This document shows positions 12,487 through 46,338 of a stretch of 46,338 bases of DNA, piece by piece; the stretch's first letter is position 1; each line of letters starts with the position of its first letter. Both the position numbers and the translations under genes were made by a program. The stretch spans positions 46,432 through 92,769 of the forward strand of contig NZ_QYTW02000014.1 of the NCBI RefSeq assembly GCF_003605405.2. The letters run 5' to 3'. The stretch comes from Siminovitchia terrae. Its GTDB lineage: Bacteria; Bacillota; Bacilli; Bacillales; Bacillaceae_C. The notes below the pieces were generated by a model. The model was not told where the DNA came from. It saw nothing but the letters and a program-made list of their open reading frames with translations, and made no database searches.

Positions 12487-12683
12487 TTTTAACTTCATTC
12501 AGCAGAAATTTCCCACTACTGTAAGTGGTGAGATGAATGCATATTGGTATTCCATTCAGTGGGGGTTCAAACCCCGGCTGAATAAAGTCAAAGCCTCCGG
12601 CGGATGCCACAGATTTTCAGAGGAAATTTATCGAGCGGTGCTCGATAAAATCTGGGCGCAAATACGCCAAGGCGAATTTGATA
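12487..12683 (+). repeat. Multi-hairpin repeat element, copy 1
   Basis: Starts 2 nt after the livJ stop with TTTAACTTCATTCAGCAG. Four successive foldable parts can be seen. CATTC..CCCACT-x-GTAAGTGG..GAATG comes first. ATTCAG..GGGG-GTTCAAA-CCCC..CTGAAT follows. TTTATCGAGC-GGT-GCTCGATAAA lies within CAGATTTT/AAAATCTG. CAAAT-CGCC-AA-GGCG-ATTTG is last. Other copies are at 16109, 30073 and 46163, all in the same orientation. Confidence 0.9.
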
Positions 12684-12685
12684 AT

Positions 12686-12713
12686 CAAGCCTCCGTTCCT
12701 GAACGGGGGCTTG
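12686..12713 (+). other. 13-bp perfect hairpin between livJ and livH
   Basis: CAAGCCTCCGTTC and GAACGGGGGCTTG flank a CT loop, with one T-G pair in the RNA. No T tract follows. It is better read as an RNA-stabilising or processing hairpin than as a terminator, and it is absent from the other repeat copies. Confidence 0.7.
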
Positions 12714-12757
12714 TATGCCGAAAATCAAAGTAGATTTGAAACGGGAGGAAAAATAAT

Positions 12758-13642
12758 TTGTTACTTGAACAGATAATCAACGGTCTGACTCTCGGAAGCA
12801 TATATGCGATCGTTGCTCTCGGCTATACTCTCGTGTTTGGTGTGCTGAATATCATTAACATGGGCCACGGAGAAATTTTCATGTTCGGAGCCTTTATGGG
12901 AGTATTAGTTACAAGTGTACTGGGTATGCCCCTTTATGTCGCTTTCATTGCAGCCATAATTGTAACCGCGGTGATAGGTTATCTAATGGAGCGCTTAGCA
13001 CTCCGCCCGCTGCGGGGAAAAAAGGGTGTATCCCACTTGGCGCCGTTAATCAGTACAATTGGTGTATCCATCTTTTTGGAGAACCTCGCACATCACTTAT
13101 TTGGTGCCGGAAATAAACCATTCAGAACGCAGCTTTCCGAGATGAGTATTCAGATTGGATCAGTCTCCGTATACTATGTGCAAATTGTTATATTTATCAT
13201 TGCTATTATTTTGATGGTAGGGCTGTCATTCTGGCTTTCAAAGGCAAAAGCAGGCAAGGCATTGAGAGCGAGTGCCGAAAACTTGGAGGTTGCTAGCCTG
13301 CTTGGAGTAGATACGAAAAAAATGATCACCCTCACTGTTGTCATTGCTTCGGCAATGGGTGGGGTTGCCGGCGTGCTCGTTGGACTGGCGTTCAACTCTG
13401 TTGCACCTCAGATGGGCTTATCCATTGGATTAAAAGGATTGGCCATCATTATTCTCGGTGGAATGGGAAGTGTCAATGGAGCCATGGCCGGTGGGCTGAT
13501 TCTGGGTCTTTCGGAAACAATGGTTGTCGCTTTCGGAGATTCGGGTTACCGGGATGCTATTGCATTTGTTGCTATCATTGTTATTTTAATCGTACGGCCG
13601 CAAGGAATCTTTGGCAAGGCCGCGTCGGGAGATAGGCGGTGA
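12758..13642 (+). CDS. livH: Branched-chain amino acid ABC transporter permease LivH
   Basis: One of two membrane subunits of the importer. The 294-residue product has about eight hydrophobic helices and the LivH N-terminal signature (INGLTLGSIYAIVALGYTLVFG, NMGHGEIFMFGAF). The C-terminal GLKGLAIIILGGMGSVNGA segment is typical. The start is TTG, with CGGGAGG nine nt upstream. livM follows after 4 nt, and together they form the heterodimeric channel. Confidence 0.95.
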   Translation: MLLEQIINGLTLGSIYAIVALGYTLVFGVLNIINMGHGEIFMFGAFMGVLVTSVLGMPLYVAFIAAIIVTAVIGYLMERLALRPLRGKKGVSHLAPLISTIGVSIFLENLAHHLFGAGNKPFRTQLSEMSIQIGSVSVYYVQIVIFIIAIILMVGLSFWLSKAKAGKALRASAENLEVASLLGVDTKKMITLTVVIASAMGGVAGVLVGLAFNSVAPQMGLSIGLKGLAIIILGGMGSVNGAMAGGLILGLSETMVVAFGDSGYRDAIAFVAIIVILIVRPQGIFGKAASGDRR

Positions 13643-13646
13643 GGAC

Positions 13647-14600
13647 ATGTTAGAATTCATTAATCCATATTACTTACAAGTTGGGTCTTTCGTATTAATT
13701 AATATTTTACTGGGTGTCAGTATGTATGTGACTCTTTCGACCGGCCAGCTTTCACTTGGACATGCAGGTTTTATGAGTATCGGAGCTTACACGACGACGA
13801 TATTGACATTGAACTATGAAATGCCGATGATTGTTGGGATTGTTGCAGGAGCGGTCCTCGCATGTATCGTGGGCGTAATTGTGGGATTTCCGGCGCTTAG
13901 GCTTGAGGGAGTATATTTAGCGATTGCCACTCTTGGTTTTGGTGAGGTCATTCGCGTGCTTCTTATCAACTGGGAGTCTCTTACAAAGGGTGCAGTTGGT
14001 ATTTCGGGCATTCCGCATTTAGGACGTGAAGTTCTTGCTTTTAGTAAAGACATCGGTTTTACACCTGATATGCTGGGACTTAGAAATAACCAATTTATCA
14101 GTCTTGCAGTCTTTCTTATTTTATTAATCATCGTTGTGGCGGTTGTCGCCTTCTTTATCAGACAGGAACATTCTAGGGTCGGCCGTGCTTATGCTTCAAT
14201 CAAGATGGACGAAAGAGCGGCTGAGGCGATGGGAGTAAACATTACGTATTATAAAATCCTTGCATTCGGGCAGGGCGCTATGATCGCAGGTTTTGCAGGG
14301 GCACTATATGCACACATTACCGCTTATATAAGCCCGTCAGACTTTGCGTACCATCGTGCCGTTGAAATATTGATCTTTGCGGTATTTGGCGGAAGCGAAG
14401 TCATATGGGGACCAATTTTCGGCTCAATCTTTTTGACTGCCATGCCGGAAGCGCTCCGGTTCATCAGCGATTACCGTTTTATGGTGTACGGTGCGCTCTT
14501 GATCGTCATGATGGCATATCGTCCACAGGGCCTTATTGATGCTAAAGTGGTCAATTGGTTCAAAAAGCGGGGACGAGGGCAAAGGAGGAAAGCTTCATGA
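13647..14600 (+). CDS. livM: Branched-chain amino acid ABC transporter permease LivM
   Basis: Second membrane subunit, 317 residues, with about nine hydrophobic helices. It carries the LivM-type LSTGQLSLGHAGFMSIGAY segment near the N-terminus and the cytoplasmic coupling region RVGRAYASIKMDERAAEAMG. The ATG at 13647 follows GGTGAGG and lies 4 nt past the livH stop; a frame from 13611 would run into livH. The stop overlaps the livG start as ATGA. Confidence 0.95.
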   Translation: MLEFINPYYLQVGSFVLINILLGVSMYVTLSTGQLSLGHAGFMSIGAYTTTILTLNYEMPMIVGIVAGAVLACIVGVIVGFPALRLEGVYLAIATLGFGEVIRVLLINWESLTKGAVGISGIPHLGREVLAFSKDIGFTPDMLGLRNNQFISLAVFLILLIIVVAVVAFFIRQEHSRVGRAYASIKMDERAAEAMGVNITYYKILAFGQGAMIAGFAGALYAHITAYISPSDFAYHRAVEILIFAVFGGSEVIWGPIFGSIFLTAMPEALRFISDYRFMVYGALLIVMMAYRPQGLIDAKVVNWFKKRGRGQRRKAS

Positions 14601-15367
14601 TCCTTGCGATCGATCAAATAAGTAAAAATTTCGGCGGTATCCAGGCATTGACAGATGTATCGTTTTCCATCGAAAAGGGAGAAGTACTAGGTTTGATTGG
14701 CCCGAACGGTGCTGGAAAAACGACCATGTTCAATATGATTACTGCAATGTATCCTCCTTCCAGCGGCCAAATTTCTTTTCATGGGGAGAAATTGACGAAT
14801 TTGAAGCCCCATCAAATTACCAAAAAAGGAATCTGCCGTACATTTCAAAATATCCGTCTCTTTCCTGAAATGACCGCGCTGGAAAATGTGATGGTAGGCA
14901 ATCATTGCCGACTGGACTCAGGCGTTTTCAGAAGTGTGTTCCGGACTAGATTTCAGAAAAAAGAAGAGGCGGCTTTAAAGGAAAAGGCGAGACAATTATT
15001 GGAGACCGTCGATTTAGCCGAGCATGTGGATACTTTGGCGGAAAACCTTGCATACGGGCAGCAGCGGCGCCTCGAAATCGCCCGCGCGCTGGCAAGTGAT
15101 CCATCGCTCCTGCTCCTTGACGAACCGGCTGCTGGAATGAATGAAAGAGAAACGAACGAGCTGTTTGATCTGATTCAGAAAATCAAAAAGCTCGACATTA
15201 CCATGTTATTGATTGAACACGACATGCCGCTGGTCATGCGGGCTTGCGACCGGATTGTCGTATTGAACTTCGGAAAGAAAATTGCAGAAGGATTGCCTAA
15301 AGAAATTCAGAATAACCCGGAAGTAATTGAGGCATACCTCGGGAAAGAGGAGGATGACCTTGCTTAA
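14597..15367 (+). CDS. livG: Branched-chain amino acid ABC transporter ATPase LivG
   Basis: Cytoplasmic ATPase of 256 residues. Walker A is GPNGAGKTT, the signature region is AYGQQRRLEIARAL (the usual LSGGQ is replaced by the AYGQQ form characteristic of LivG), Walker B is LLLLDEPAAG, and the H-loop is in LLIEHDM. The ATG at 14597 overlaps the livM stop and has AAAGGAGG at an ideal distance. It pairs with LivF. Confidence 0.95.
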   Translation: MILAIDQISKNFGGIQALTDVSFSIEKGEVLGLIGPNGAGKTTMFNMITAMYPPSSGQISFHGEKLTNLKPHQITKKGICRTFQNIRLFPEMTALENVMVGNHCRLDSGVFRSVFRTRFQKKEEAALKEKARQLLETVDLAEHVDTLAENLAYGQQRRLEIARALASDPSLLLLDEPAAGMNERETNELFDLIQKIKKLDITMLLIEHDMPLVMRACDRIVVLNFGKKIAEGLPKEIQNNPEVIEAYLGKEEDDLA

Positions 15368-16061
15368 AGTAACAAACGTTAGTACTTATTACGATAATAT
15401 TCAAGCTCTTAAAGAAATCAATCTCGAAGTGGAGCAGGGAAGTATTGTGACCATTTTGGGGGCAAACGGTGCTGGAAAAACCACTACAATGAAAACTATT
15501 GCTGGTTTGCTGAAGCCACGTACAGGAAAGATTGAGTTTTTAGGAGAAGATGTCACGAAGCTTCGCCCCGATCAGCTTTTGCGAAGGGGATTGGCTCTAG
15601 TGCCTGAAGGACGCGGCATTTTGTCGAATATGACAGTTCTTGAAAACCTTGAGATGGGTGCCTATCACCGGAAGGATTCCGGGGTGTCGGCGGATTTGGA
15701 AATGGTGATGGAGCGTTTTCCTATTTTGCGGGAAAGAAAGTCCCAGCTTGGTGGCACTATGTCTGGCGGCCAGCAGCAGATGCTGGCGATTGCGCGGGCC
15801 ATTATGTCAAAGCCGAAATTGCTTCTTCTAGATGAGCCATCCATGGGTCTAGCGCCAATTATTGTTGCAGAGATTTTTAAAATCATCAAAGAAATCAATG
15901 AATCCGGGACAACTGTTCTGCTTGTTGAGCAAAATGCCCGCCAGGCTTTGCGTATAGCTGATTATGGCTATGTGTTGGAGTCCGGACGTGTGGTGACAAA
16001 CGGGCCTGCACAGGAACTACTCAGCGACGAGCGGATCAAAGCTGCCTATTTGGGCTACTGA
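15360..16061 (+). CDS. livF: Branched-chain amino acid ABC transporter ATPase LivF
   Basis: Second ATPase, 233 residues. Walker A is GANGAGKTT, the signature MSGGQQQMLAIARAI and Walker B LLLLDEPSMG. An in-frame ATG at 15354 directly abuts the GAGGAGG ribosome binding site and so is too close to be used. The TTG at 15360 has a 6-nt spacing and gives the normal LivF start MLKVTNVSTYY. It overlaps livG by 8 nt and is the last gene of the operon. Confidence 0.94.
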   Translation: MLKVTNVSTYYDNIQALKEINLEVEQGSIVTILGANGAGKTTTMKTIAGLLKPRTGKIEFLGEDVTKLRPDQLLRRGLALVPEGRGILSNMTVLENLEMGAYHRKDSGVSADLEMVMERFPILRERKSQLGGTMSGGQQQMLAIARAIMSKPKLLLLDEPSMGLAPIIVAEIFKIIKEINESGTTVLLVEQNARQALRIADYGYVLESGRVVTNGPAQELLSDERIKAAYLGY

Positions 16062-16108
16062 TTAAACATAGCGGGCGAATCAGGAAATCTTTGGCTGATC
16101 AGAAAGCT

Positions 16109-16303
16109 TTTAACTTCATTCAACAGAAGTCTCCCACTTCTGTAAGTGGTGAGATGAATGCCTATTGGTAATCCATTCAGTGGGGGTTCAAACCCCGGCT
16201 GAATAAAGTCAAAGCCTCCGGCGGATGCCACAGATTTTCAGAGGAAACTTATCGAGCGAAGCTCGATAAAATCTGGGCGCAAATACGTCAAGGCGCATTT
16301 GAT
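16109..16303 (+). repeat. Multi-hairpin repeat element, copy 2
   Basis: Begins 47 nt after the livF stop and matches copy 1 nearly base for base. The third hairpin loop is GAA instead of GGT, and CGCC is changed to CGTC. It lies between livF and the operon terminator, so it is transcribed as part of the livF 3' untranslated region. Confidence 0.9.
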
Positions 16304-16344
16304 GTAAAGACTATAAACACATTCGGTATCTGAAGGATGGAGTG

Positions 16345-16374
16345 AAGCCCCGGGGAAATTCTTCCGGGGCTTTT
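16345..16374 (+). terminator. Terminator of the liv operon
   Basis: AAGCCCCGG pairs with CCGGGGCTT and is followed by TT, giving a strong GC-rich stem with a TTTT tail at 16371-16374. Confidence 0.88.
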
Positions 16375-16852
16375 CCGTTGGATAGTTGCTGTATAACGTG
16401 ATAATCTTTTAAGAAAAGCGGCAAGGTACCCGATGATCGCCGGCCAGCAGAAGGCGAATTTTGATGAGGGAATTTTTTAGCCGCCACACCAAACCAGCTG
16501 CATCGTGTGAAGCATCTCTGGGCATGCTTCATGGAACTTTGCTACGATGTTCCAATGGCTTTCTCGAATAAAGCTATATCGCAGGAGCATATTCTACTTT
16601 GAATAGGCTTCCTTGCTGGCTTGATCCTTTCACCGGTCGCGCCTGAGCTACGTCTTGTGGCTCAGGACGTAACACCTGTCGCCTCGCTTGCAGTCCGTCG
16701 GAGCTGTACATACCATATCATCATGATTTGTAGAAGATTAGTCCAAATTTTATACTTGCTTTAACAGTTAAAAGTAACTTTTCCTGTAAGTATGTGTTCA
16801 GCTAACAGGAAGGGGATAGAACTGCTGTGGCAGTTGTGATAGGAGGGAAAAG
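16375..16852. other. Intergenic region upstream of lutA
   Basis: 478 nt without a convincing gene. CCTGAGC and GCTCAGG near 16646-16669 can form a hairpin, and the surrounding segment looks like decayed intergenic repeat sequence. TGTTCAGCTAACA at 16795-16807 is a small dyad (TGTT/AACA arms) near the expected lut promoter. It resembles a FadR-type GntR operator and could be the LutR site, but it is weak. Confidence 0.4.
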
Positions 16853-17575
16853 ATGAAGGTTTCATTATTTATTACATGTTTGGCAGATGTTTTTTACCCG
16901 GAAGTTGGGATGGATGTCGTTGAAGTCTTGGAACGGTGCGGCTGTGAAGTAGATTTTCCAGAAACGCAGACGTGCTGTGGGCAGCCTGCATATAGCACGG
17001 GATACTTGGAGGATGCCAAAGAGGCGATGAAGCAGATGATTACGACATTTGCAGATTCGGAATACGTTGTAACACCATCCGGTTCCTGCGCTTATATGTT
17101 CAAAGAATACCCTGAGTTTTTCAAGGGTGATGTGGAATGGGAGAGTCAAGCAAAGGATTTAGCGGATAAAACATACGAATTCGGCCAGTTTCTCGTAGAT
17201 GTTTTAAAATTGGAAGATGTAGGTGCAGCTTTTGAAGGGCGTGCCACCTATCATAAATCTTGCCATATGACCCGTCTGCTCGGTGTGAAAGAGGCACCTA
17301 TTACACTCTTAAAAAATGTGGAGGGTCTTGAACTTGAACCTTTACCGCGGAGCCAGGATTGCTGTGGGTTCGGAGGAACTTTTTCAGTGAAAATGGGTGA
17401 TATTTCGTCGGCTATGGTGGAGGAAAAAGTGGAGCATATTAAAGAAACAGGTGCAGACGTGCTGGTTGGCGGAGATTGCGGATGTTTGATGAACATTGGA
17501 GGAAGAATCAAACGGGAAGGATTGCCAATCAAAGTGATGCACCTAGCTGAAATTTTAAATAAAACAAAAGCGTAG
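16853..17575 (+). CDS. lutA: L-lactate oxidation protein LutA
   Basis: Subunit of the iron-sulfur L-lactate dehydrogenase complex LutABC, which converts lactate to pyruvate. The 240-residue product contains the two CCG cysteine-rich repeats of the glycolate-oxidase-FeS-subunit family, with [11 protein letters not shown] near residue 40 and [11 protein letters not shown] near residue 170. The ATG follows ATAGGAGGG. The length matches B. subtilis LutA (238). lutB follows after 66 nt. Confidence 0.96.
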
Positions 17576-17586
17576 ACGCTTGTTTT
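17561..17586 (+). other. Hairpin with T tract between lutA and lutB
   Basis: AAACAAAAGCGT, including the lutA stop region, can pair with ACGCTTGTTTTT with one bulge. It resembles a weak intrinsic terminator inside the operon and may reduce read-through into lutBC. Confidence 0.45.
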
Positions 17587-17641
17587 TATGGGGCGCTTGG
17601 TGGCTCTAGGATTGATGTTTGAATAGAAAGGGGAGAGGCAA

Positions 17642-19060
17642 TTGGGAATTAAAATCGGCAATGCTGCCTTTGACGTGCGTGCAGACGAAGCGCTCCGAGA
17701 TCAGAATGTACAGGGGGCGGTCCCGTCTGCACAGGAACGGCTTCAATCTGTCCGATTAAAGGCGGTCGGTGAGCTGGACGATTGGGAACGCTGGCGTGAC
17801 CTGGGCGAAGAAATCCGTTCGCATACGATAGACAACCTTGATTACTATTTGACCGAGCTAAGCAATAATGTGGCGAAGCGTGGCGGACATGTGTTTTTTG
17901 CAGAAACTGCAGAAGACGCCAATCAATACATTGAAGAGGTCGTTCGGAAGAAGCAGGCAAAAAAGATTGTAAAATCAAAATCGATGGTCACAGAGGAAAT
18001 TGGACTGAATCCAGTTTTGGAAAAATCCGGCTGTGAGGTCATTGAAACGGATCTTGGCGAATACATCATTCAATTGGATAATGACCACCCTTCTCATTTC
18101 CTCGGTCCTGCTCTTCATAAGACGAGGGAGCAGGTCAGGGATATTTTTTCAGAAAAAAGGGGATACGTCGGTAGCGAAGAGCCGGAAGAGCTCACACAGT
18201 TTGCCCGCGAACAGCTTCGGAAGGAATTTTTATCAGCTGATGTCGGCATAACTGGGTGCAACTTTGCCATTGCCAATTCGGGAACAGTCGGTATTGTGAC
18301 GAACGAAGGGAATGCGCGGCTTTCAACGACGGTGCCGAAAACGCAGATCACCGTTATGGGAATGGAGCGGCTTGTTCCTTCGTGGGAAGATTTCGATGTG
18401 ATGGTTTCCTTACTTTGCCGTAGCGCAGTTGGACAAAAGCTTTCGACGTATGTAACGGCTGTGAGCGGGCCGAGGCTAGAAGGAGAAGCAGACGGGCCGG
18501 AGGAATTCCATTTAGTGATCGTCGACAACGGCAGATCCGGTATTCTTGGAACGCAATTTCAATCGGCCCTGCACTGTATCCGCTGTTCAGCCTGTGTCAA
18601 TGTATGCCCGGTATACCGCCATATCGGCGGACATGCATACGGTTCAATTTACCAGGGGCCGATCGGAGCTGTTTTGACTCCGCTCTTGGGCGGATACGAG
18701 GAATATAAAGAACTTCCGTATGCTTCTTCATTATGTGCTGCCTGTACGGAAGTATGCCCGGTGCGCATACCGCTGCACGAATTGCTCTATAAGCATCGTC
18801 AGCAAATCGTTCAGGAAGAAGGACTTGCACCAGCCGGGGAAAAAATGGTGATGAAAACGTTCCGGACGGTCACATCATCCAGCCGGCTTTATAAAGTTAG
18901 TACAAAATCCGCCACGGCTGTACGCGGAGTGATTGCAGGCATGTCCAAGGGCGGGCCAAAGCCAATCCGAGGATGGACGCAATCGCGAAACCTGCCTTCC
19001 GTCGGGAAAAAGAGATTCCGGGATCTGTATAAAGAACGGAAAAAGGGGGCGGGCGAATGA
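17642..19060 (+). CDS. lutB: L-lactate oxidation iron-sulfur protein LutB
   Basis: 472 residues, close to the B. subtilis protein. The N-terminal LUD/DUF162 domain ([37 protein letters not shown]) is followed by two ferredoxin-type clusters, [19 protein letters not shown] and [18 protein letters not shown], that bind 4Fe-4S centres. The start is TTG with GGGGAGAGG about 6 nt before it. It overlaps lutC by 4 nt. It probably transfers electrons from lactate to the respiratory chain together with LutA and LutC. Confidence 0.96.
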
Positions 19061-19776: not shown

Positions 19777-19783
19777 AATATGA

Positions 19784-19831
19784 AGAGTTGGAGCGCGCCG
19801 GCCCCTTTGGGGCGATGCGCGCTCCAACTCT
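19784..19831 (+). terminator. Terminator of lutABC
   Basis: AGAGTTGGAGCGCGC (19784-19798) pairs perfectly with GCGCGCTCCAACTCT (19817-19831) around an inner GCCCC-TTT-GGGGC hairpin. The 3' arm is the first unit of the 20-bp tandem repeat that follows. Confidence 0.85.
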
Positions 19832-19920
19832 CTTATAAAAGCTCCAACTCTCTTATAAAAGCTCCAACTCTCTTATAAAAGCTCCAACTCTCTTATAAAA
19901 GCTCCAACTCTCTTATAAAT
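19821..19920. repeat. Five tandem copies of a 20-bp unit
   Basis: GCTCCAACTCTCTTATAAAA is repeated at 19821, 19841, 19861 and 19881, with a fifth copy at 19901 changed only at its last base. Each copy contains the 11-nt 3' arm of the lutC terminator. The last copy holds the stop codon of the minus-strand NERD gene (TAA at 19913-19915). Confidence 0.98.
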
Positions 19921-20887: not shown

Positions 20888-20938
20888 AGTAGTTTACAAG
20901 TATCCTAGCATAATTCGTAAGCGTATTCCATAGAGTAT

Positions 20939-21274: not shown

Positions 21275-21314
21275 TATCTCCTTATAAAGATGTTCTATTG
21301 ATCTCGAATCTACT

Positions 21315-30072: not shown

Positions 30073-30256
30073 TTTAACTTCATTCAGCAGAAGTCTCCCA
30101 CTTCTGTAAGTGGTGAGATGAATGCTATTTCAGTGGGGGTTCAAACCCCGGCTGAATAAAGTTAAAGCCTCCGGCGGATGCCTCAGATTTTCAGAGGAAA
30201 TTTATCGAGCGGAGCTCGATAAAATCTGGGCGCAAATACGCCAAGGCGCATTTGAT
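30073..30256 (+). repeat. Multi-hairpin repeat element, copy 3
   Basis: Same element as at 12487, with about 11 nt missing between the first and second hairpins and compensating-type changes elsewhere (the third loop is GGA). It starts 19 nt after the stop of the gene ending at 30053, on the same strand. Confidence 0.9.
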
Positions 30257-34048: not shown

Positions 34049-34117
34049 ATAAGAACAATAGAACAGGTTTCTCAAGGGCGGTCCGTGCACACTTCTCGCA
34101 AGGAGGGAGGTGGTGCC

Positions 34118-34198
34118 ATGACAGTATACGAATCTATCTCGTCCATGATTGGTTTTGCTGTTTTGATTGTGGCCATTCTGTCATTTAAAAAAGACTAA
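34118..34198 (+). CDS. Putative holin-like type I toxin, 26 aa
   Basis: 26-residue peptide beginning MTVYESISSM and ending LSFKKD with one hydrophobic helix (about 9-23). This is the signature of the holin-like toxin family (Hol_Tox, related to TxpA/BsrG-type peptides of Bacillus), which damages the membrane when over-produced. The AAGGAGGGAGGTGG ribosome binding site is exceptionally strong. CCCCTCC in the 3' untranslated region (34217-34223) could pair with GGAGGG of that site and hide it. A convergent antisense RNA gene covers the 3' end. It is too short for most gene finders. Confidence 0.83.
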   Translation: MTVYESISSMIGFAVLIVAILSFKKD

Positions 34199-34331
34199 AA
34201 GCCGCCTTTGAGATGACCCCTCCAGACGGCTTTAGTACACATTTGTGCTGATCCCCGGCGGGACCTGCTATTGTCGGATCGTTTCGGTGTTCCCAGCGCC
34301 GGAACGATCATTCTGACTATATGGTGTTTCT
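34187..34331 (-). ncRNA. Predicted antisense RNA antitoxin
   Basis: Predicted from a strong minus-strand promoter and a terminator. The transcript would start near 34331, contain a GATCGTT..AACGATC hairpin (34276-34307), and end after the AAAGCCG/CGGCTTT stem followed by TTTTAGTCTTTTTT on the minus strand. It overlaps the toxin stop codon and 3' untranslated region, the arrangement of RatA/TxpA and SR4/BsrG. Size about 145 nt. Expression has not been observed. Confidence 0.65.
34197..34234. terminator. Shared terminator of toxin mRNA and antisense RNA
   Basis: AAAGCCG (34198-34204) pairs with CGGCTTT (34227-34233). The T tract is good on the minus strand and poor on the plus strand, so toxin mRNA may extend further and overlap the antisense RNA more. 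Confidence 0.65.
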
Positions 34332-36906: not shown

Positions 36907-37063
36907 TTATCTGTTACTAAATATGTTAAAAAGGCCGCCGATTCCGTCTTCATCTTTTGATTCTCCTCCTTGGGAAGAACCGTCTCCAAAAACTGTCTCA
37001 CCCGGATCCAACTCCACTTATGTCATCGCCAATAAATTGATAAACAATCTCATGATTATTCAC
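36907..37063 (-). pseudogene. Internally deleted copy of the AIM24-family gene
   Basis: On the minus strand the remnant starts GTG with NNHEIVYQFIGDD, continues out of frame through LDPGETV and FGDGSSQ, and ends [14 protein letters not shown] before a stop at 36907. The same blocks are present in the intact gene at 41820-42608 ([42 protein letters not shown]). About 80% of the gene is lost in two internal deletions. Homology also extends upstream into the leader (TTGGATTCAA near 37107, as at 42649). It is non-functional. Confidence 0.88.
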
Positions 37064-37208
37064 TTTTTTCCACCATCCTTTTAAGGGAATTACTGTCAAT
37101 TGAACCTTTGGATTCAAAAAAAATTTTAAAGCCATAGCATTTGATTTTTCTTGCACCTATTGCGACAATTAACGCTATTATAATGTCGAATAAAAGAGAG
37201 GTAAGCCT

Positions 37209-39666: not shown

Positions 39667-39901
39667 AAAGGGAGCAGGGGAAGATGTGTGTTGGCAGGCC
39701 CGATGGGGGATAATAATCTGTACAATTATATGAATAATTGAATGTCTTCAAAGAAAAATGTATCCTAATATTGAATTTGTTAGAAAGCGAGTGATTTATA
39801 TTATGATAGTCAGCTCTTTATATTTTATAGCTAAAAAGAACCAGGAGCGGGAGAAATAACATTTGAATAAATTCTTCCGCATATAAAATGGAGGAATTGA
39901 A

Positions 39902-40660
39902 TTGTTTAGTTATTATGGTGAACTAAGTACGGAACTTTATAATTTTACAAAGCCTATTGGACATTCAGTAGGTGGTGATATTGAGTATTATCTTGAAAGA
40001 TTAAAAGACACGAACGGAAAGATACTTGAAGCTGCAGTGGGATCTGGGCGTGTTCTTATACCATTATTCGAGAAGGGATATACCGTTGACGGCATTGACT
40101 ATTCACCTGCAATGTTAGATTCTTGTCGAAAACGTTGTAAAGAAAGAGGATTGACCCCGAATTTATATGAAGGTGATTTGCGTCACTTTAAATTGCCTTC
40201 AAAATATGAAGTGATTATAATACCGACTGGCTCCTTTTGTTTAATTGAGAAGTTAGAGGATGCCAAGGCGGCTCTGGAGTGTTTTTATAATCATTTATTA
40301 CCTGGAGGACGTGTGATCATTGATCTTCTAATACCCAGTGATTGGCATACAGGAGAAACTTCCACTTCAACTTTTCCTTTTTCTAATGAAGAAGGTATTT
40401 TGTTAGAAAGTAAATCAATAGAAATGAACTGGGTAGATCAATATACCTTGACCTATCTAAAATATGAGAAATGGAGAAAAGGTAAGTTAGTGGACACTGA
40501 ACTACAAAGGTTTGCCATGCGTTGGTATGGAGTTGAGGAATTCAAACTTATATTGAAAAGTATAGGTTTCCTTGAAATAACTTGTTCTGCTGGTTATTCT
40601 TATAAAAAAGATCCAACGAAAGAAACTCAATTGATTACATTTGAAGCTGTTCGAAAATAA
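39902..40660 (+). CDS. Class I SAM-dependent methyltransferase
   Basis: 252 residues. The SAM-binding motif I is ILEAAVGSGRVLIPL (a Glu-Ala-Ala-Val-Gly-Ser-Gly variant of ExGxGxG). The acidic ribose-binding residue is in VDGIDYSPAML, motif II is around YEGDLRHFKLP, and LLPGGRVIIDL marks the later strand. The substrate is unknown. The start is TTG with GGAGG 7 nt upstream. It is a single gene; the 235-nt gap before it holds no clear terminator for the transporter operon. Confidence 0.88.
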   Translation: MFSYYGELSTELYNFTKPIGHSVGGDIEYYLERLKDTNGKILEAAVGSGRVLIPLFEKGYTVDGIDYSPAMLDSCRKRCKERGLTPNLYEGDLRHFKLPSKYEVIIIPTGSFCLIEKLEDAKAALECFYNHLLPGGRVIIDLLIPSDWHTGETSTSTFPFSNEEGILLESKSIEMNWVDQYTLTYLKYEKWRKGKLVDTELQRFAMRWYGVEEFKLILKSIGFLEITCSAGYSYKKDPTKETQLITFEAVRK

Positions 40661-40735
40661 TGTTAAATTCCAGGTGCTGGAAATATAAAGGGCAATGCGT
40701 TGAATATATTCAGGCAACGATGATTGTTAAAGAGG

Positions 40736-40765
40736 GCGACCTATCCTTTGGATGGGTCGCTTTTT
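40736..40765 (+). terminator. Terminator after the methyltransferase
   Basis: GCGACCTATCC-TTT-GGATGGGTCGC followed by TTTTT. The 11-bp stem includes one T-G pair. Confidence 0.92.
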
Positions 40766-41037
40766 GATTATATAGCGTACAATATCAGCTACCTGAGTTG
40801 TAAATAAATTTTTCACTAAATGCTGTGTCCATATCTGAGAAGTCGCGTCCCGAGCCTGTTGGCACCGTAGCATGTAACGCTTTACACCAGCCAAGCCTTG
40901 CTTTTTCTCAAATAAAATATTTATATAACTGGCTTCTTAAAAGCTTTTAATAGATTTAAAAAGAAAATGTATATTTAAGTACAGTATGATTAAAACGGAA
41001 TCAATTTAATAGTTTAGTTAGAAAGGAAGGACATACC
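40766..41037. other. Intergenic region upstream of the XRE gene
   Basis: 272 nt with no gene. No recognisable repeat. The XRE promoter is expected near TACAGTATGATT at 40980-40991 but no consensus pair is clear. Confidence 0.4.
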
Positions 41038-41403
41038 GTGCTAACGTCTTTTGGAAAGTTTTGTAGAAAGCTAAGAGTAGATAATGATGAGCTATTAAAA
41101 GACATGGCTGATAAAATAGGGGTCGCCTCTTCTTATTTATCAGCTGTTGAAAACGGCAAAAGAAACGTTCCTCAAGAATGGATTGGTAAGATTGCTACAT
41201 CCTACTCATTAAGTGCTTCGGGGCTAGCTGAATTAAATCAAGCTGTTCAAGAATCACAAAATACACTGAAAGTTGATTTTGAAGGATTCAGTGGAGAAGA
41301 TAAAATCGTCTTTATGACTATGATCAGAGAATTTAAAGGTTTGGATGAGAAGGACAGAGCAAAAATCAAAGAAATTCTCCTGAAGAATGAGGAAAGCATG
41401 TAA
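41038..41403 (+). CDS. XRE-family helix-turn-helix regulator
   Basis: 121 residues. An N-terminal HTH of the Cro/CI type occupies about 6-60 (FGKFCRKLRVDNDELLKDMADKI, then SSYLSAVENGKRNVPQEW), and a C-terminal helical segment may mediate dimerisation. The start is GTG with AAGGAAGG 8-9 nt upstream. The target is unknown. No phage genes are nearby, so it is a stand-alone chromosomal regulator or a leftover of a mobile element. Confidence 0.85.
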   Translation: MLTSFGKFCRKLRVDNDELLKDMADKIGVASSYLSAVENGKRNVPQEWIGKIATSYSLSASGLAELNQAVQESQNTLKVDFEGFSGEDKIVFMTMIREFKGLDEKDRAKIKEILLKNEESM

Positions 41404-41797
41404 GAATTGCTTCATAAATGAAAATCGAGAATTGTCCACAGTCTCAAGTATCCCGGCTAAAGATTGAATAAAAAGACGACGATGATGAGGGAGTAATAAA
41501 TTATTTTGTGTAATTGGACTTTTAACTAGGCTCTTGCTCATTAGGCAGATAGGGTCGTTCTGCGAATATTACCACAAGCACTTGGTGAGGTTCCGATGGA
41601 TCAGTGGAAGGCCCTAGTGGACGATCAGTAGGATACGCGTTGGAAAGAGGGCGAAGTATCATTATCCCTGCTATTTTCGCACTTATATTCATCGGTTGAA
41701 AAAGGATGCATAACTAATATTGAGGAGACATGCTCTTGATCGGAAGAAGGCAAATTTCATCATGAACCGTGATTTTGACATAGGTTAGAATCATGAA
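41404..41797. other. Gene-poor region between XRE and AIM24 genes
   Basis: About 390 nt without an intact gene. Plus-strand fragments such as ILPQALGEVPMDQWKALVDDQ (ending at a stop near 41632) and ERGRSIIIPAIFALIFIG (stop near 41700) read like decayed coding sequence without a usable start. They could also be chance. Confidence 0.35.
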
Positions 41798-41816
41798 GAG
41801 CCTGCTTGGCAGGCTC
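41798..41816 (-). terminator. Terminator of the AIM24-family gene
   Basis: On the minus strand GAGCCTGC-CAA-GCAGGCTC followed by TTCAT, directly after the stop at 41820. Confidence 0.8.
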
Positions 41817-41819
41817 CTC

Positions 41820-42608
41820 TCATGATCTGTCGCTGAATATATTAAACAGTCCACCGATTCCGCCTTCATCCTTTGAACCACCGGTCGCTGGCATGGCTGC
41901 AAATACTCGGCTGGCCAGCCGGCTGAATGGCAGTGACTGCACCCAAACAGTACCCGGCCCACGTAATGTGGCAAAAAAGAGCCCTTCTCCTCCAAACAAT
42001 GCCGTTTTCACGCCGCGGACAAATTCAATATCGTAATCCACATCACGGGTTATGGCCACTAGACAACCCGTGTCAATTTTCAATGTCTCACCTGGTCCCA
42101 ATGTCTTTTGGTGGATCGTTCCTCCGGCATGAACAAACGCCATTCCGTCACCTTCAAGCTTTTGCATGATGAATCCTTCTCCCCCGAAGAATCCAGTCCC
42201 TATTTTGCGTTGGAACTCGATTCCTACAGATACGCCTTTTGCTGCGCATAAAAATGCATCTTTTTGACAGATGATTTTTCCATCCAGTTCCTTCAAATCC
42301 ATCGGGATAATTTTTCCTGGGTAAGGGGAGGCGAACGAAACGTGCTTTTTTCCGCTACCTTCATTTGTAAACATCGTCATGAACAGGCTTTCTCCTGTCA
42401 ACACCCGTTTGCCTGCGCCGAGCAGCTTGTCCATCAGTCCTCCGCTTTGAGAAGAGCCGTCTCCAAAAACTGTCTCCATATGAATGTGGTCATCCATCAT
42501 CATCAGACTTCCGGCTTCTGCCACAACCGTTTCACCTGGGTCCAGCTCTACTTCTACAAATTGCATGTCATCGCCAATAATTTGATAGTCAATCTCATGA
42601 TTATTCAT
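41820..42608 (-). CDS. AIM24 / TIGR00266-family protein
   Basis: 262 residues of glycine-rich beta structure typical of the TIGR00266/AIM24 family ([32 protein letters not shown] split over the first 40 residues, [15 protein letters not shown] and [15 protein letters not shown] later). The C-terminal tail [14 protein letters not shown] looks like a tether or recognition tail. The bacterial function is poorly known; the yeast relative is mitochondrial. GGTGG lies before the ATG. A deleted paralogue is at 36907-37063. Confidence 0.9.
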
Positions 42609-42760
42609 GTTTCCACCGTCCTTTTAACAGAACTACGGATAGGCAGGGCTATTGGATTCAAGAAAATATTAACAGTATCTAGTCTATTATTTTTCTGTAG
42701 CCTTTATAAAAAGTACGGTACGAATTCGAAATTGATTTTGCCTAAAAAGCTTCATTTAAG

Positions 42761-44002
42761 TTATGGTGCGACTCTTTTCTCATTTTTATCCTTTAAGGTT
42801 AACTGGTAGCTTAATGGCTTCCTGAATGTTCGGAAGTTTATCACGAGATGTGCTAACATACCTGCTACCAACCCCCAAAATGCACCGCCTACTCCCAAAA
42901 GCGTTACATTTGCTGCAGTGGCCAAGAAAGTAATTAATGCCACTTCTCGACCTGCGGGATCTTTCATTGCATCTGCAAGGCTACTTCCAATCGTTCCCAA
43001 CAAAGCTAAACCGGCTAAAGTTGCTATAAATGTTGAGGGTAGTATTAAAAACAATGTGACAAGTGTAACGCCAAAAATACCGACAACTATATATAGCGTA
43101 CCGCAAATGATACCGGCAATATAACGTTTTGATTGATTTTCATGAGCATCCGGTCCTGTACAAATAGCGGAAGATATCGCGGCTATGTTAAAAGCATGTG
43201 AGCCAAAGGGAGCCATAATGAGCGAGCCGATGCCTGTAACAGTCAGTATAGGATTCGCACTCGTTTTAAATCCATCACTTCTTAAGATCAACATACCAGG
43301 GATGTATTGCCCGGTTAATGTAATGATAAATAATGGTAATGCAACACCTAATAATGAAGATATAGAAAACTCTGGCATGGTAAACACCGGAAGTGCAAAG
43401 TCCAGCCCAACCCCTGTAAAATCGACTTTATTGAATAAGACGAGGGACAATGACCCGACAACTAAGATACCTACTATAGCAAATCGAGGGAGAAGCCGTT
43501 TTAAAACTATATACGTAAAAAATAACATAATAACAAAAGCTGGGTCTATTTCAGCTCCTCCGAAGGCTGCTATTCCAAATTGAAGCAATATACCCGCTAA
43601 TAAACCAGCTGAAATCCCAGGAGGAATATATTGAATCAGACGGTCAAACATTCCAGAAACACCCAATATAATAAAACCGATGGCAGATATCATATAGGCA
43701 CCAATGGCTTCACTATAGGGTGTAAACACTAAAGCCGATGCTAAAAAGGCAACCCCTGGAGTTGACCAAGCCGTGATAATAGGTTCTTTGTATTTGTAAC
43801 TTAACCATACCCCAGTTATTCCAATACCTATAGAAAGAGAAAATACCCATGAAGCGGTTAGTTCGGGGCTTAGATTAGCTACTTTGGCGGCTTGGAATAC
43901 AATTGCAAACGTTCCACCATAATTAATAAGTACAGATACTAAGGCAGCTACCGATGGAAAAAATAAATCGTTTAGCCGCAGCGGATTTGATTTAGATTTC
44001 AT
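42761..44002 (-). CDS. BenE-family transporter
   Basis: 413 residues with about 12 hydrophobic helices and the benzoate-membrane-transport (BenE) pattern: ITAWSTPGVAFLA near the N-terminus, PFGSHAFNIAAISSAICTGPDAHENQ in the middle and ALLGTIGSSLADAM later. Such proteins are proposed to import benzoate or related compounds, but the ligand is not known here. The ATG at 44002 follows GAAGGAG; the longer frame to 44044 is rejected. It is divergent from a MocR-type regulator across 558 nt, which may control it. Confidence 0.9.
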   Translation of the reverse strand: MKSKSNPLRLNDLFFPSVAALVSVLINYGGTFAIVFQAAKVANLSPELTASWVFSLSIGIGITGVWLSYKYKEPIITAWSTPGVAFLASALVFTPYSEAIGAYMISAIGFIILGVSGMFDRLIQYIPPGISAGLLAGILLQFGIAAFGGAEIDPAFVIMLFFTYIVLKRLLPRFAIVGILVVGSLSLVLFNKVDFTGVGLDFALPVFTMPEFSISSLLGVALPLFIITLTGQYIPGMLILRSDGFKTSANPILTVTGIGSLIMAPFGSHAFNIAAISSAICTGPDAHENQSKRYIAGIICGTLYIVVGIFGVTLVTLFLILPSTFIATLAGLALLGTIGSSLADAMKDPAGREVALITFLATAANVTLLGVGGAFWGLVAGMLAHLVINFRTFRKPLSYQLTLKDKNEKRVAP

Positions 44003-44560
44003 TCTGATTTCTCCTTCCGAAAGCATTTTGTAAAATCCCACCAAGTATGATAATTCCTGTAATTACGTTCATTATTGGTACACTCTGAAAACGAGTTTCT
44101 TAGGTTGTTGCTCGACTTTTTGTGAAAAAGTGAGCATATAGACTTGGGTCTGAATATAGATGATGCTATTGGGCCAGCAAATGAGAGGTATCTTATAAGA
44201 TAAGTTCATGCCTCGCTTTGTTAACAGTCATTAAGAGCCGGCTTTACATAAGCAACGCCTGATGTTCATGAGCATGTTTTTTCCATATTGGCGGATTCTT
44301 TCATTGTCTATGACGACCAGATTTTTGGGATATCTGATACAAAGTTTTCAACGGCTATTTTTCAATTTTTCCTTCCTGTCGACTCATTCAAGTGTAAAAT
44401 ACTCCCGTTATTTTGAATTTTACATTTCATATGCTTCATGCTTGTTTCTCTCCATTCATAATGTGATTTATGGTGCAACCGTAGTATAACAACGAATGGA
44501 GTGGTATGATATATCCAAAAATAGCAATTTTAATCAGTCCATAAAGGAGTGAATTGCGCA
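44003..44560. other. Long intergenic region between BenE and MocR genes
   Basis: 558 nt with no gene that I can support; the frame at 44262-44489 lacks a ribosome binding site and family features. ACTTTTT-GTG-AAAAAGT near 44115-44131 is a small perfect hairpin. TATCTTATAAGATA at 44189-44202 is a perfect 14-bp palindrome. TGGTA-containing short repeats occur near both gene starts (ATTGGTACAC at about 44074 and GTGGTATGAT at about 44502), as expected for MocR direct-repeat operators. Confidence 0.5.
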
Positions 44561-45991
44561 GTGATAAAGATAGATCGACAAGCTCATAAACCAATTTGGA
44601 AACAGTTGCTTGATCAAGCTGTTCATAATATTACGAGTGGAAAATGGAAAGCTGGTTACCGCCTCCCACCGACACGTGAACTGGCTCAACAATTAGGAGT
44701 CGCTCGCTCAACAGTACAAGCCGTGTATGAAGAGCTATATAGCAGGGGCTATACTGTTACTTCACGTCGTGGAGGCACACGTGTAAGTGACTGGAGCCAA
44801 CCTAACATCTCAAAGGAGGAAAGATCGGCCCAACGCTTGTCTCCACCATCTTTGCCTGTTTTAGAAGATGCGGTAGAGAGATTACATGATTGGTCTTGGG
44901 GAAAAGAGGTTAACGAAGTCGATATCGACTTTTCTCCCCATGAGCCTTATTTAGATTCTTTATTCTTGAAAAAATGGAGGCAATCATTTCTTCATTCATC
45001 GGACAAAGCTGATTTGTCCAGCTGGCTTTACGGAAACCCTTTTGGTTATGAACCATTGCGCTATCAAATCCAAAATTATTTATCAGTTGGAAGGGGGATC
45101 CATGTTGATATAGATCAGATATTACTAACATCTGGTGCTCAGCAAAGCATAGACCTGATCTCACAAGCATTACTGACGGAGGGGGACACAGTAGCTGTCG
45201 AGGATCCGGGGTTTCCTCCGGCTGGACTGACACTGATGTATCGAAACATGAACGTCATCCCTGTTCCAGTCGATGAACAAGGAATAGTGGTGGACCGCAT
45301 TCCTGAACAATCCAAGATTATTTTTGTTACACCTGCCCATCAGTCTGCAACAGGTGTGATCATGTCTGTTAAGCGGAGAGGGGAATTATTTAAGCGAGCT
45401 ATTTCCAACCAATCTTGGATTATAGAAGATGACTATGATGGTGAATTTCGCCATAAAGGTGACCCACTTCCGACATTATTTAGTCAAGAGCCTGAATGTA
45501 CACTCTATCTGATGAGCTTTTCCAAAATGATTGCTCCGGGAATTCGGATTTCAGCCATTATAGGATCTGTTGAGGCAATTGCACAAATAGCTCGTGTACA
45601 AAAGCTCACTTCCCGGCATCTTCCCATCATGGAACAGCTAACCCTTACTCATTTTATTGAGCAGGGTCACTTCATGCGACATATGAGGCGAGTCAAAAAC
45701 GTCTATAGACGGAGGCATGAGGCGATGGTAAAAGCGATTGCTTCAACCCAATTAGATGAATTGTTTTCTATAAAAGGTGTTGAGACAGGTCTGCATATGT
45801 TACTGGAAGCAGATGAGGATTTTAAGGAAGAAGAAATGACAAATAAAGCTTTAGAGAACGGAATACGTGTCTATCCTCTAAGTCCTTATTGTCTGGAAAG
45901 CAAGCGAAAAGGATGGGTATTGGGATACTCCAAAGTGAATGAGGAGACAATTCAGTGTGGTATTAACCAATTGTCTAACATATTTAAATGA
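44561..45991 (+). CDS. MocR/PdxR-type GntR regulator with aminotransferase domain
   Basis: 476 residues. The N-terminal GntR winged helix (IWKQLLDQAVHNITSGKW, LPPTRELAQQLGVARSTVQAVYE) is joined to a fold-type I aminotransferase domain with the PLP-lysine motif SFSKMIAPGIRISA and the IIEDDYDGEFRHKG pocket. It is only distantly similar to the MocR protein at 31395. A GTG at 44549 lies inside the AAAGGAG site, so the GTG at 44561 is chosen, with a long 11-nt spacing. It probably regulates the divergent BenE gene. Confidence 0.9.
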   Translation: MIKIDRQAHKPIWKQLLDQAVHNITSGKWKAGYRLPPTRELAQQLGVARSTVQAVYEELYSRGYTVTSRRGGTRVSDWSQPNISKEERSAQRLSPPSLPVLEDAVERLHDWSWGKEVNEVDIDFSPHEPYLDSLFLKKWRQSFLHSSDKADLSSWLYGNPFGYEPLRYQIQNYLSVGRGIHVDIDQILLTSGAQQSIDLISQALLTEGDTVAVEDPGFPPAGLTLMYRNMNVIPVPVDEQGIVVDRIPEQSKIIFVTPAHQSATGVIMSVKRRGELFKRAISNQSWIIEDDYDGEFRHKGDPLPTLFSQEPECTLYLMSFSKMIAPGIRISAIIGSVEAIAQIARVQKLTSRHLPIMEQLTLTHFIEQGHFMRHMRRVKNVYRRRHEAMVKAIASTQLDELFSIKGVETGLHMLLEADEDFKEEEMTNKALENGIRVYPLSPYCLESKRKGWVLGYSKVNEETIQCGINQLSNIFK

Positions 45992-45995
45992 AATT

Positions 45996-46047
45996 AAACC
46001 TATGAATGGCCCTGGTGTAGAACTTGGGCCATTCATAGGTTTTTTTA
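45996..46047 (+). terminator. Strong terminator of the second MocR gene
   Basis: AAACCTATGAATGGCCC pairs with GGGCCATTCATAGGTTT and runs into seven T residues. Confidence 0.95.
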
Positions 46048-46093
46048 CAAAACGGAAGTTACTGCTAGATTAAAAATATGCTGGTTGCCGCAC

Positions 46094-46121
46094 TTCGTGA
46101 GGGTGAACGTACCCTCACGAA
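46094..46121. other. Perfect 11-bp hairpin
   Basis: TTCGTGAGGGT and ACCCTCACGAA flank GAACGT. No T tract follows. It lies between the MocR terminator and repeat copy 4, with a second hairpin GGGCCT-ACTAGC-AGGCCC at 46145-46162 that abuts the repeat. Confidence 0.7.
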
Positions 46122-46162
46122 TCACATCACTTCTATAAGGAGCCGGGCCTACTAGCAGGCCC

Positions 46163-46338
46163 TTTAACTTCATTCAGCAGAAATCTCCCACTTCTGTATG
46201 TGGTGAGATGAATGCCTATTGGTATTCCATTCAGTGGGGGTTTAAACCCCGGTTGAATATAGACAAAGCCTCCGGCGGATGCCACAGATTTTCAGCGGAA
46301 ATTTATCGAGCGGAGCTCGATAAAATCTGGGCGCAAAT
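46163..46338 (+). repeat. Multi-hairpin repeat element, copy 4 (cut by window end)
   Basis: Same element as copies 1-3, same orientation, starting 171 nt after the MocR stop. Several changes (GTATGTGG, GTTTAAAC, TTGAATATAG) weaken the first two hairpins, but TTTATCGAGC-GGA-GCTCGATAAA is intact. The window ends inside the last part. Confidence 0.9.

Follow-up and report, generated by a model that had tools for sequence, protein, structure and literature searches.

A dispersed multi-hairpin repeat of Siminovitchia terrae as a putative noncoding mobile element oriented with replication

INTRODUCTION

Insertion sequences of the IS200/IS605 family, such as IS608 and ISDra2, insert 3' of a fixed target without duplicating it, end in hairpins, pair their target with a guide, and use the lagging-strand template, as set out in two accounts (PMC7290912, PMC6006769). 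In known members, the guide is on the 5' side of the foot of the hairpin. PATEs, elements of the IS200/IS605 type found for example in Haloquadratum and Halanaerobium, are portrayed as short and noncoding, with near-terminal palindromes, a left target of 4 to 5 nt, and other small elements as guests (PMC3119063, PMC7290912), and one Halanaerobium study saw no strand preference for IS605 (10 of 22). REP and REPIN sequences, with their RAYT proteins, are dispersed intergenic palindromes. MITEs, such as bcr1 of B. cereus, are short intergenic repeats that usually make target duplications. Finally, the Bacillaceae-1 RNA (RF01690) appears in a table of the most abundant bacterial small-RNA families that lack a known function (PMC9029176), and its strand had been termed uncertain (PMC4333381).

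Here, we analyze a repeat in a 46,338-nt stretch of the Siminovitchia terrae genome (the window), and comparative evidence indicates that the repeat is mobile DNA and no dedicated part of 3' UTRs. Like IS200/IS605 insertion sequences, it inserts 3' of a penta-nucleotide without duplication, has hairpin ends, and combines apparent target-guide pairing with a lagging-strand template, but it has no gene, its target-complementary guide sits at the 3' base of its first hairpin (P1), and no S. terrae insertion sequence was seen with the same right end. With PATEs it shares the short noncoding form, near-terminal palindromes, 4- to 5-nt left target, and small guests, but it differs in its conserved interior core, in having its guide on the first hairpin's 3' side, in its strong replication bias, and in that no parent insertion sequence sharing both ends was found. 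It resembles REP/REPIN sequences in being dispersed intergenic palindromes, but the RAYT of S. terrae has GGGGTCWGACCCC repeats of its own, and it resembles MITEs as a short intergenic repeat, but no target duplication was seen. Bacillaceae-1 corresponds to an internal module of some relatives and not to the whole element. A search of titles and abstracts and of the text of open PMC papers found no description of the repeat or of its core, GCCTCCGGCGGATG.

RESULTS

Copies in the window and in the genome. Comparison of the window with itself revealed four copies of a multi-hairpin unit of about 190 bp, all on the plus strand, and a profile built from 29 genomic copies found four copies at 240, 236, 216, and 205 bits, with the next match at 10.6 bits; both bear out the four-copy, plus-strand repeat of the initial annotation. 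The copy limits of the profile take in the 5-nt TTTAA target. The features, all on the plus strand, are as follows.

12488-12682, plus: copy 1 with its TTTAA target (profile match)
12493-12682, plus: copy 1, mobile unit proper of 190 bp, lying between livJ and livH (delimited by the empty site of sister genome G002)
12488-12492, plus: host DNA at the left side of copy 1, its TTTAA target (base counts in 60 full copies)
12488-12592, plus: P1 domain, stem 12488-12503/12577-12592, which encloses P2 and P3 and whose base pairs TTTAA with an internal guide (compensatory changes)
12509-12533, plus: P2 hairpin, resembling the left-end hairpin of TnpB insertion sequence L034 of the same genome (compensatory changes, end comparison)
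12562-12575, plus: P3 hairpin, GGGG/CCCC (compensatory changes)
12593-12606, plus: core GCCTCCGGCGGATG (348 exact genomic copies)
12610-12654, plus: P4 long hairpin with TCGAGC/GCTCGA at its tip (tip covaries, lower stem nearly invariant)
12659-12682, plus: P5 terminal hairpin and right end (A)TTTGAT (compensatory changes)
16109-16303, plus: copy 2 with its TTTAA target at 16109-16113 (profile match; G003 lacks this copy and has a small deletion at the site)
30073-30256, plus: copy 3 with its TTTAA target at 30073-30077 (profile match; clean empty site in G003)
46163-46338, plus: copy 4 and its TTTAA target, truncated at the end of the window (profile match)

Copy 3 is 11 nt shorter. In the contig, copy 4 is followed by an N and then by a second right half, and thus it is probably truncated by a scaffold join. 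The upstream open reading frames end at 12485, 16061, 30053, and 45991, in agreement with annotated distances of 1, 47, 19, and 171 nt from stop codon to copy, and domain matches to Peripla_BP_6 and BPD_transp_2 in the livJ-like and livH-like genes that flank copy 1 confirm that it separates the two.

The 14-mer core occurs 348 times in the 5.30-Mb genome versus 0 times for a reversed control, and thus the repeat is not due to chance. The profile gave 97 matches in 922,863 bases (80 full-length and 17 partial, with a few copies represented by two fragments each), from which we extrapolate to about 560 matches, about 460 of them full-length, in the genome. The 80 full copies lie a median of 4.7% from their consensus, none lies within 1%, and the burst of transposition in this genome looks to be past. 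Substitutions per site in these copies were 2.0% in the core versus 4.1% in the whole unit, and the least variable regions were the core and the flanks of P4.

Target and empty sites. The left-flank TTTAA was present, base by base, in 58, 60, 59, 57, and 60 of 60 full copies, and the six bases to its left showed no preference. Queries made of joined flanks gave a spanning match for 11 of 117, two of which are the same copy. Empty sites join exactly for copy 1 and C12:59419 in G002 and for copy 3 in G003; C12:55047 likewise joins exactly in G002, with a 1-nt gap a few bases on, and for one C1 copy the empty site in G003 shows a gap of 3 nt on the left side of the junction. The C12 copies checked in G002 were missing at four of four sites. 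Neither C6:36748 nor C6:39308 gave a clean junction in the empty-site comparison, and no target-site duplication was found at the empty sites in sister species. The alignments show that the whole 190-bp unit inserts 3' of TTTAA without target duplication. In G032, a closed chromosome of another genus, TTTAA precedes the element in 15 of the 21 copies whose left end can be read. Some spanning matches were paralogous or weak and prove nothing (C12:147639, C12:78193, and one C1 copy); others look like further empty sites at 82 to 85% identity and were left unused (C6:116234 in G005, and C6:8324 against IS copies of S. terrae itself).

Orientation. Element direction equals replication direction, as judged by GC skew, in 94 of 97 profile matches over 0.92 Mb (P = 2e-24): 36/37 on contig C1, 38/40 on C12, and 20/20 on C6, where skew was computed within the window only. 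The bias exceeds the 80% bias of coding bases (P = 1e-6), and intergenic TTTAA is about equally common on both strands (401 versus 437). In G032, 20 of 24 elements run with replication. By skew, 78 of 88 elements in Bacillales loci do so too, but genes and skew are inseparable in that test, and skew agrees in only 5 of the 13 loci where local genes oppose the element. Among the 94 S. terrae matches are copies between genes running the opposite way, and the strand bias is thus mostly a replication bias. Over the 0.92 Mb covered, the tabulation of strand proposed with the initial annotation gave a clear bias that tracks replication, and this bias, the empty sites, and the TTTAA target support its suggestion of a mobile element that enters in one orientation.

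The same annotation had offered a transcribed 3' element as the cause of the pattern. A functional 3'-end element, kept for RNA stability or processing, would fit the position of all four window copies behind plus-strand genes and the strong structure on the plus strand. It would also fit an excess of copies, both right at stop codons (11/48 copies versus 19/253 TTTAA sites, P = 0.003) and at distances of up to 50 nt from a stop codon (about 20/48 versus about 63/253, P = 0.02). The proportion of copies with a same-strand upstream gene, however, was like the background (48/65 versus 253/396 intergenic TTTAA sites; P = 0.12, not significant); tabulating the distance to the upstream stop left a mild excess at stop codons. 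Moreover, orientation follows replication where the neighboring genes do not: 24 of the 65 replication-oriented copies on C1 and C12 adjoin at least one gene opposing replication, and 7 lie between two such genes. Copies also lie between diverging (10/65) and converging (7/65) genes, orthologous sites in sister species are without copies, and two congeners are without any element match. We consider a dedicated 3' element very improbable.

Structure and target-guide pairing. In folding, copy 1 outperforms 200 shuffles (z = -5.8 for DNA and -5.0 for RNA), and P1 is missing from its lowest-energy DNA and RNA folds. The initial annotation had called for a covariance check on genomic copies, and in an alignment of 69 copies, compensatory changes back P1, P2, P3, the P4 tip, and P5. 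The 69 were hand-chosen from 102 distinct copies, and copies that contained N, were incomplete, or fell outside 165 to 212 nt had been excluded beforehand. Of the cells, 89.6% were paired, and 115 cells were doubly changed versus 41 ± 5 in shuffles and 37 to 54 in slid controls, but doubly changed pairs, at 21, were no higher than in slid controls (18 to 23). A competing extension of P3 was formed in 93% of cells. Transitions in the stems of the 80 S. terrae copies favored the kind that keeps G-T or G-U on the plus strand (100:95 versus 62:133 at unpaired positions, P = 1.4e-4; 100:63 versus 58:97 without four hypervariable positions). The alignment shows the plus strand of the element with conserved and apparently covarying helices.

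The target is matched by a complementary sequence at the 3' base of P1, GTTAAA for TTTAA and, in some lineages, GATAAA for TTTAT, and the two tend to change together. Complementarity was 294/378 versus 206 ± 9.5 when permuted, an effect that is overstated because the permutation mixes registers, and the inner P1 was not clear in 33 of 96 records. In G032, GTGAAA occurs in 10 of 14 aligned copies, 5 of those 10 follow TTTAA, and only about half of the 10 fit the pairing. The right end is AATTGAT in some lineages. Minimum-energy folds contain a long pairing between core and right end, but its TCAAA/TTTGA block fails in the AATTGAT lineages and its GCCT/AGGC block breaks in some copies that retain P5, and thus it is unsupported rather than excluded.

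Relatives and internal modules. Relatives of the element occur across the Bacillales, and other genomes with any exact core have 1 to 108 of them; conservation of the core among these core-searched loci is by construction. One record with 88 cores, G079, is titled Arthrobacter, outside the Bacillales. A search for phage and plasmid carriers gave no match; one viral contig has the core. Some relatives hold Bacillaceae-1 inside, within the P4 loop in some other species, and the 67-nt Bacillaceae-1 model matches an internal module in part of the relatives. Within elements it always has the orientation of the element, and it also occurs outside elements. An Rfam scan of the window returned only BsrG and tRNA, with no Bacillaceae-1 in the window copies, and the element copy in locus L003 gave two Rfam matches with E values of 0.24 and 0.32, far below gathering. 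The repeat had been suspected to be a composite of two halves. For the mobile unit of S. terrae this is wrong, as both halves move together, but in other Bacillales the loops have exchangeable modules, Bacillaceae-1 among them.

Search for the mobilizing enzyme. Loci for the family and Y1 searches were taken from the best 8 to 30 matches, and among the Y1 loci so fetched there was neither a cognate Y1 TnpA nor a parent insertion sequence sharing both ends. Of 27 element-bearing draft assemblies, 8 were without a Y1_Tnp match, and 2 of these 8 have 41 and 30 exact cores. Two genomes with 108 and 88 cores gave only short Y1 fragments. The intact IS200 TnpA of S. terrae (L046) was rejected as the mobilizer, as its ends show no likeness to the element.

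The left half had been likened to right ends of IS200/IS605 elements. In a comparison of four ends, both ends of the TnpB insertion sequence L034 beat all 300 mononucleotide shuffles (the right end scored 14 somewhere in the element versus at most 13 in the shuffles), but the aligned match, within P2, is with its left end, and the ends of L039 did not beat all shuffles (17 and 24 of 300). The proposed likeness is thus partly right; among the loci fetched, the search for TnpB and TnpA genes yielded no insertion sequence sharing both ends. In B. timonensis, TTTAAC precedes a left end of the L034-like type in a tnpA-bearing IS605 (L353). The proposed likeness to omegaRNA found no support: in 30 loci GTCAA is followed by the fixed core and not by a variable guide, and L034 and L039, read through, end otherwise, yet the L034 right end did score above shuffles. 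In L033 and L039, a copy of the element lies downstream of tnpB, past the insertion sequence.

A RAYT-like Y1 protein of S. terrae (C13:34510-35064) might move the element as a REP-like sequence. Presence and absence match, as the five of 34 family genomes with a RAYT at least 71% identical (S. terrae, G001, G003, G022, and G032) all carry the element and congeners G002 and G004 have neither; in both G001 and G003 the RAYT has an element no more than 1.5 kb away, though not adjacent. G005, however, has 15 scored element matches and no RAYT, and the 8 of 27 element-bearing genomes without a Y1 match argue in the same direction. Moreover, an exact GGGGTCWGACCCC palindrome flanks 6 of 15 RAYT loci, two of them in element-free genomes (G010 and G017), and occurs at three other places in 846 kb of the S. 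terrae genome. The likeness of 10 RAYT flanks to the element in no case went beyond 20 of 300 shuffles, and the protein scores 70.9 bits against a cutoff of 80 in the NCBI RAYT model. No element lies within 1.5 kb of the S. terrae RAYT locus, which has GGGGTCWGACCCC. We rejected RAYT for its own repeats, despite the presence/absence match, and regard it as an improbable mobilizer.

Alternatively, single-stranded DNA might be moved by a non-Y1 or unknown enzyme, or an RNA copy might be reverse transcribed into a lagging-strand gap, with the core and helices as recognition RNA. Such a route would accommodate the Y1 proteins missing or fragmentary in several high-copy-number genomes, the low variability of the core and P4 flanks, the stem changes that keep G-U, and a single group II intron match at L257, a locus with the core. 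The target-guide complementarity, however, fits HUH systems, and we think this route unlikely.

DISCUSSION

We infer that a Y1 (HUH) transposase is involved, and the repeat is probably a noncoding, nonautonomous mobile element of the Bacillales that moves as single-stranded DNA by means of such an enzyme acting in trans. Its traits of the PATE type are a fixed penta-nucleotide target, lack of duplication, hairpins near both ends (P1/P2 and P5), and a lagging-strand-template bias. As neither a cognate TnpA nor a parent insertion sequence was found, we do not claim membership among PATEs, only likeness of action. Also speaking against this reading are the guide at the 3' base of P1, the lowest-energy folds of copy 1 that lack P1, and the Halanaerobium study in which IS605 showed no strand preference. 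The transposase would bind the end hairpins while the lagging-strand template is single stranded. The left cut would fall after the target, marked by the internal guide, and the right cut after TTTGAT, and the excised strand would be joined into another TTTAA on the lagging-strand template. Selection would tolerate insertions at stop codons and between genes, and any RNA from the element would be a by-product. A bolder possibility, which we hold as doubtful, is an unnamed, order-wide class of modular mobile elements in which the target is set in cis by pairing with the 3' base of the first hairpin, loops dock structured RNAs such as Bacillaceae-1, and the enzyme is other than a known Y1.

As a putative mobile element, what had looked like 3'-UTR elements becomes a family with several hundred copies in the S. 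terrae genome. Its strand bias would be explained by replication, and such a bias can be misread as gene regulation. The pairing of TTTAA with GTTAAA and of TTTAT with GATAAA offers a testable target-guide rule. The analysis also shows Bacillaceae-1 to form part of a mobile element, as a module, at a number of loci.

Copies, boundaries, and target of the element

The initial annotation described one repeated unit with four copies in the window, all on the plus strand, and both self-comparison and a profile search bore this out. The profile, built from 29 genomic copies, was run on 922,863 bases of the own genome and gave 97 matches, 80 of them full-length and 17 partial. Extrapolated genome-wide, this amounts to approximately 560 matches and 460 full copies; a loose first screen gave 597 candidates, which is not a copy number. 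A 14-nt core, conserved between the domain of hairpin P1 (which encloses P2 and P3) and hairpin P4, has 348 exact occurrences genome-wide, and its reversed control has none. Just past the end of the window (46338), at position 92770 of its contig (C6), there is an N, after which the right half of copy 4 recurs; this is likely a scaffold-join artifact at the repeat. Comparable N-joined duplications were seen at the TnpB loci L034, L039, and L045.

Other features seen in the window and on contig C1 of the own genome
Window 251-1155: tandem repeat with spacings of 151 and 274 nt
Window 19801-19920: GCTCCAACTCTCTTATAAAA, a 20-bp unit in about five tandem repeats
Window 34055-34304: BsrG-type RNA, of the type I toxin-antitoxin kind (68.7 bits)
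Window 37020-37067 and 42565-42612: 48-nt repeat, 90% identity, 5.5 kb apart
C1 locus L055, 3414-4011: OLE RNA (442 bits)

Empty sites, the orthologous places in sister species that lack a copy, define the limits of the unit. Exact joins at the predicted point were found for copy 1 and C12:59419 in the congener G002 and for copy 3 in the congener G003. At C12:55047 in G002 the join was likewise exact, and a gap of 1 nt followed a few bases further on; for one C1 copy, the site in G003 had a gap of 3 nt to the left of the junction. Copy 2 is missing from G003, with a small deletion at the site. G002 lacks both C12:53401, where there is a 7-nt gap, and C12:56395, where the site has diverged, and neither junction is clear. 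A third congener, G005, carries at the place of copy 1 a sequence resembling an internally deleted remnant. No target duplication was seen at the empty sites compared. Among 60 full copies, the 5 nt left of the unit read TTTAA, with base-by-base counts of 58, 60, 59, 57, and 60; at the six preceding bases, the most frequent base occurred in at most 24 of the 60. The TAA of this target coincides with the stop of a same-strand gene in 11 of the 48 copies located behind such a gene, hence the placement "one base after the stop." The copy at C12:106706-106799 has TTTAA immediately followed by AGCCTCCGG, which would fit a loss of the P1 domain between TTTAA and TTAAA.

Structure and target pairing

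Compensating pairs, which the initial annotation had proposed to seek in the foldable parts, stood out by two measures and, by a third, against shuffles only. Across 69 copies from many genera and 55 pairs, pairs formed in 89.6% of cells. Doubly changed cells numbered 115, versus 41 ± 5 in shuffles (0 of 500 as high) and 37 to 54 in slid controls, and the covariation score was 0.127, versus 0.082 and 0.037 to 0.046, respectively. Pairs showing at least one double change numbered 21, a value that 5 of 500 shuffles reached and that lay within the 18 to 23 of the slid controls. Six of them fell in P1, three each in P2, P3, and the P4 tip, and six in the right-end hairpin P5; P4's lower stem is near-invariant and contributes little evidence. 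Kinship among the copies inflates all of these figures. In the own genome, stem transitions were more often of the kind that preserves plus-strand G-T/G-U pairs (100:95, versus 62:133 in unpaired sites; p = 1.4e-4), also after hypervariable positions, one paired and three in loops, were dropped (100:63 versus 58:97; p = 2e-5). When copy 1 is folded to its energy minimum, as DNA or as RNA, P1 is absent, and an extended P3 and a pairing of the core with the right end appear instead. In the alignment, 93% of cells form the extended P3, and one of its pairs is doubly changed. Because these folds lack P1, P1 may form only once the ends are engaged. Some relatives retain P1 or P5 with very different sequence, and P1 is either a plain hairpin or encloses P2 and P3.

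The outer part of P1 includes the target, which is complementary to a guide at the 3' base of P1. In the 63 records, of 96, whose inner stem was clear, 294 of 378 positions there were paired, versus 206 ± 9.5 when permuted, a contrast that is overstated because registers vary between records. TTTAT pairs with GATAAA in some copies, including those of Sporosarcina, and TTTAA with GTTAAA in many others. The guide is GTGAAA in 10 of 14 aligned copies of genome G032, and because 5 of these 10 nonetheless follow TTTAA, pairing is, judged from sequence, not the sole determinant of the target.

Orientation

By GC skew, 94 of 97 matches in the own genome point with replication: 36 of 37 on C1 (skew, -0.108), 38 of 40 on C12 (+0.097), and 20 of 20 on C6 (+0.094, calculated within the window only). 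This exceeds the approximately 80% share of coding bases (p = 1e-6), and intergenic TTTAA is near-equal between strands (401 versus 437). Among 65 replication-oriented copies on C1 and C12 with both neighbors known, at least one neighboring gene runs against replication in 24 and both do in 7. A closed chromosome of another genus gave 20 of 24 with replication, counting short matches, and Bacillales loci gave 78 of 88, in a test where genes and replication are inseparable. A mild surplus of copies at stop codons persists, and we infer that it is due to selection.

Distribution and the Bacillaceae-1 module

A search for the core plus 11 nt located it in at least 91 stretches, from Bacillales genera plus one outlier, a record titled Arthrobacter.

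Core-bearing genera (basis, core plus 11 nt)
Lysinibacillus, Sporosarcina, Psychrobacillus, Ureibacillus, Solibacillus, Metasolibacillus
Siminovitchia, Fredinandcohnia, Schinkia, Alkalihalobacillus, Bacillus, others

Some relatives (L249, L250, L256, L310, and others) contain the Rfam family Bacillaceae-1 (RF01690) as an internal module, at one or the other of two positions. It lay within the element in 21 of 22 matches at 21 core-bearing loci, most of them picked for seeming to carry it, in 3 of 5 matches at 18 other core-bearing loci, and at three more places in G040 and G026, loci retrieved via the element; it was unmatched in three further core-bearing loci (L275, L302, and L308). All 5 matches in sequence unselected on the core (140 kb of C1 and 120 kb of G032) lay outside the element. 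By a rough pattern count, 22 of 98 core copies carry the module, 16 in P4 and 6 before the core, and every embedded match listed has the element's orientation. From matches both inside and outside elements, Bacillaceae-1 is, on sequence grounds, a separate RNA family captured by part of the elements. Arrays of RUCCU-loop hairpins at L055 (10713-10778 and 14834-14899) match Bacillaceae-1 weakly.

Relation to known systems and candidate mobilizing enzymes

No paper on the repeat was found in the open PMC literature searched. Its insertion habits are common to PATEs and IS200/IS605, as described in the cited papers (PMC3119063, PMC7290912, and PMC6006769). Unlike in those systems, no cognate transposase was found and the guide is positioned differently, and for these two reasons we do not class the element as a member of either. 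Of 27 element-bearing assemblies, 8 gave no match to Y1_Tnp, an HUH transposase family; two assemblies rich in cores had short fragments only. The presence of RAYT, a REP-associated Y1-like protein, tracks the element across the family, G005 excepted, and RAYT has repeats of its own. A RAYT-like gene of the own genome (C13:34510-35064; L188) is flanked by GGGGTCWGACCCC palindromes, and GGGGTCWGACCCC also occurs at window 24997. Outside the RAYT locus, the palindromes, single or in inverted pairs, occupy three places in 846 kb of the own genome; they are a small REPIN-like family.

For some Geobacillus TnpB proteins, TTTAA serves as a TAM. When the element was compared with four ends from two TnpB insertion sequences, the two ends of L034, from the own genome, scored above all 300 shuffles, and those of L039 did not, being reached by 17 and 24 of 300. 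In a Bacillus timonensis IS605 with tnpA, TTTAAC precedes a left end of the L034-like type (one locus). Because the own copies lie 1.6 to 15% from their consensus (median, 4.7%), a past burst of the element, with the mobilizing enzyme since lost, is plausible.
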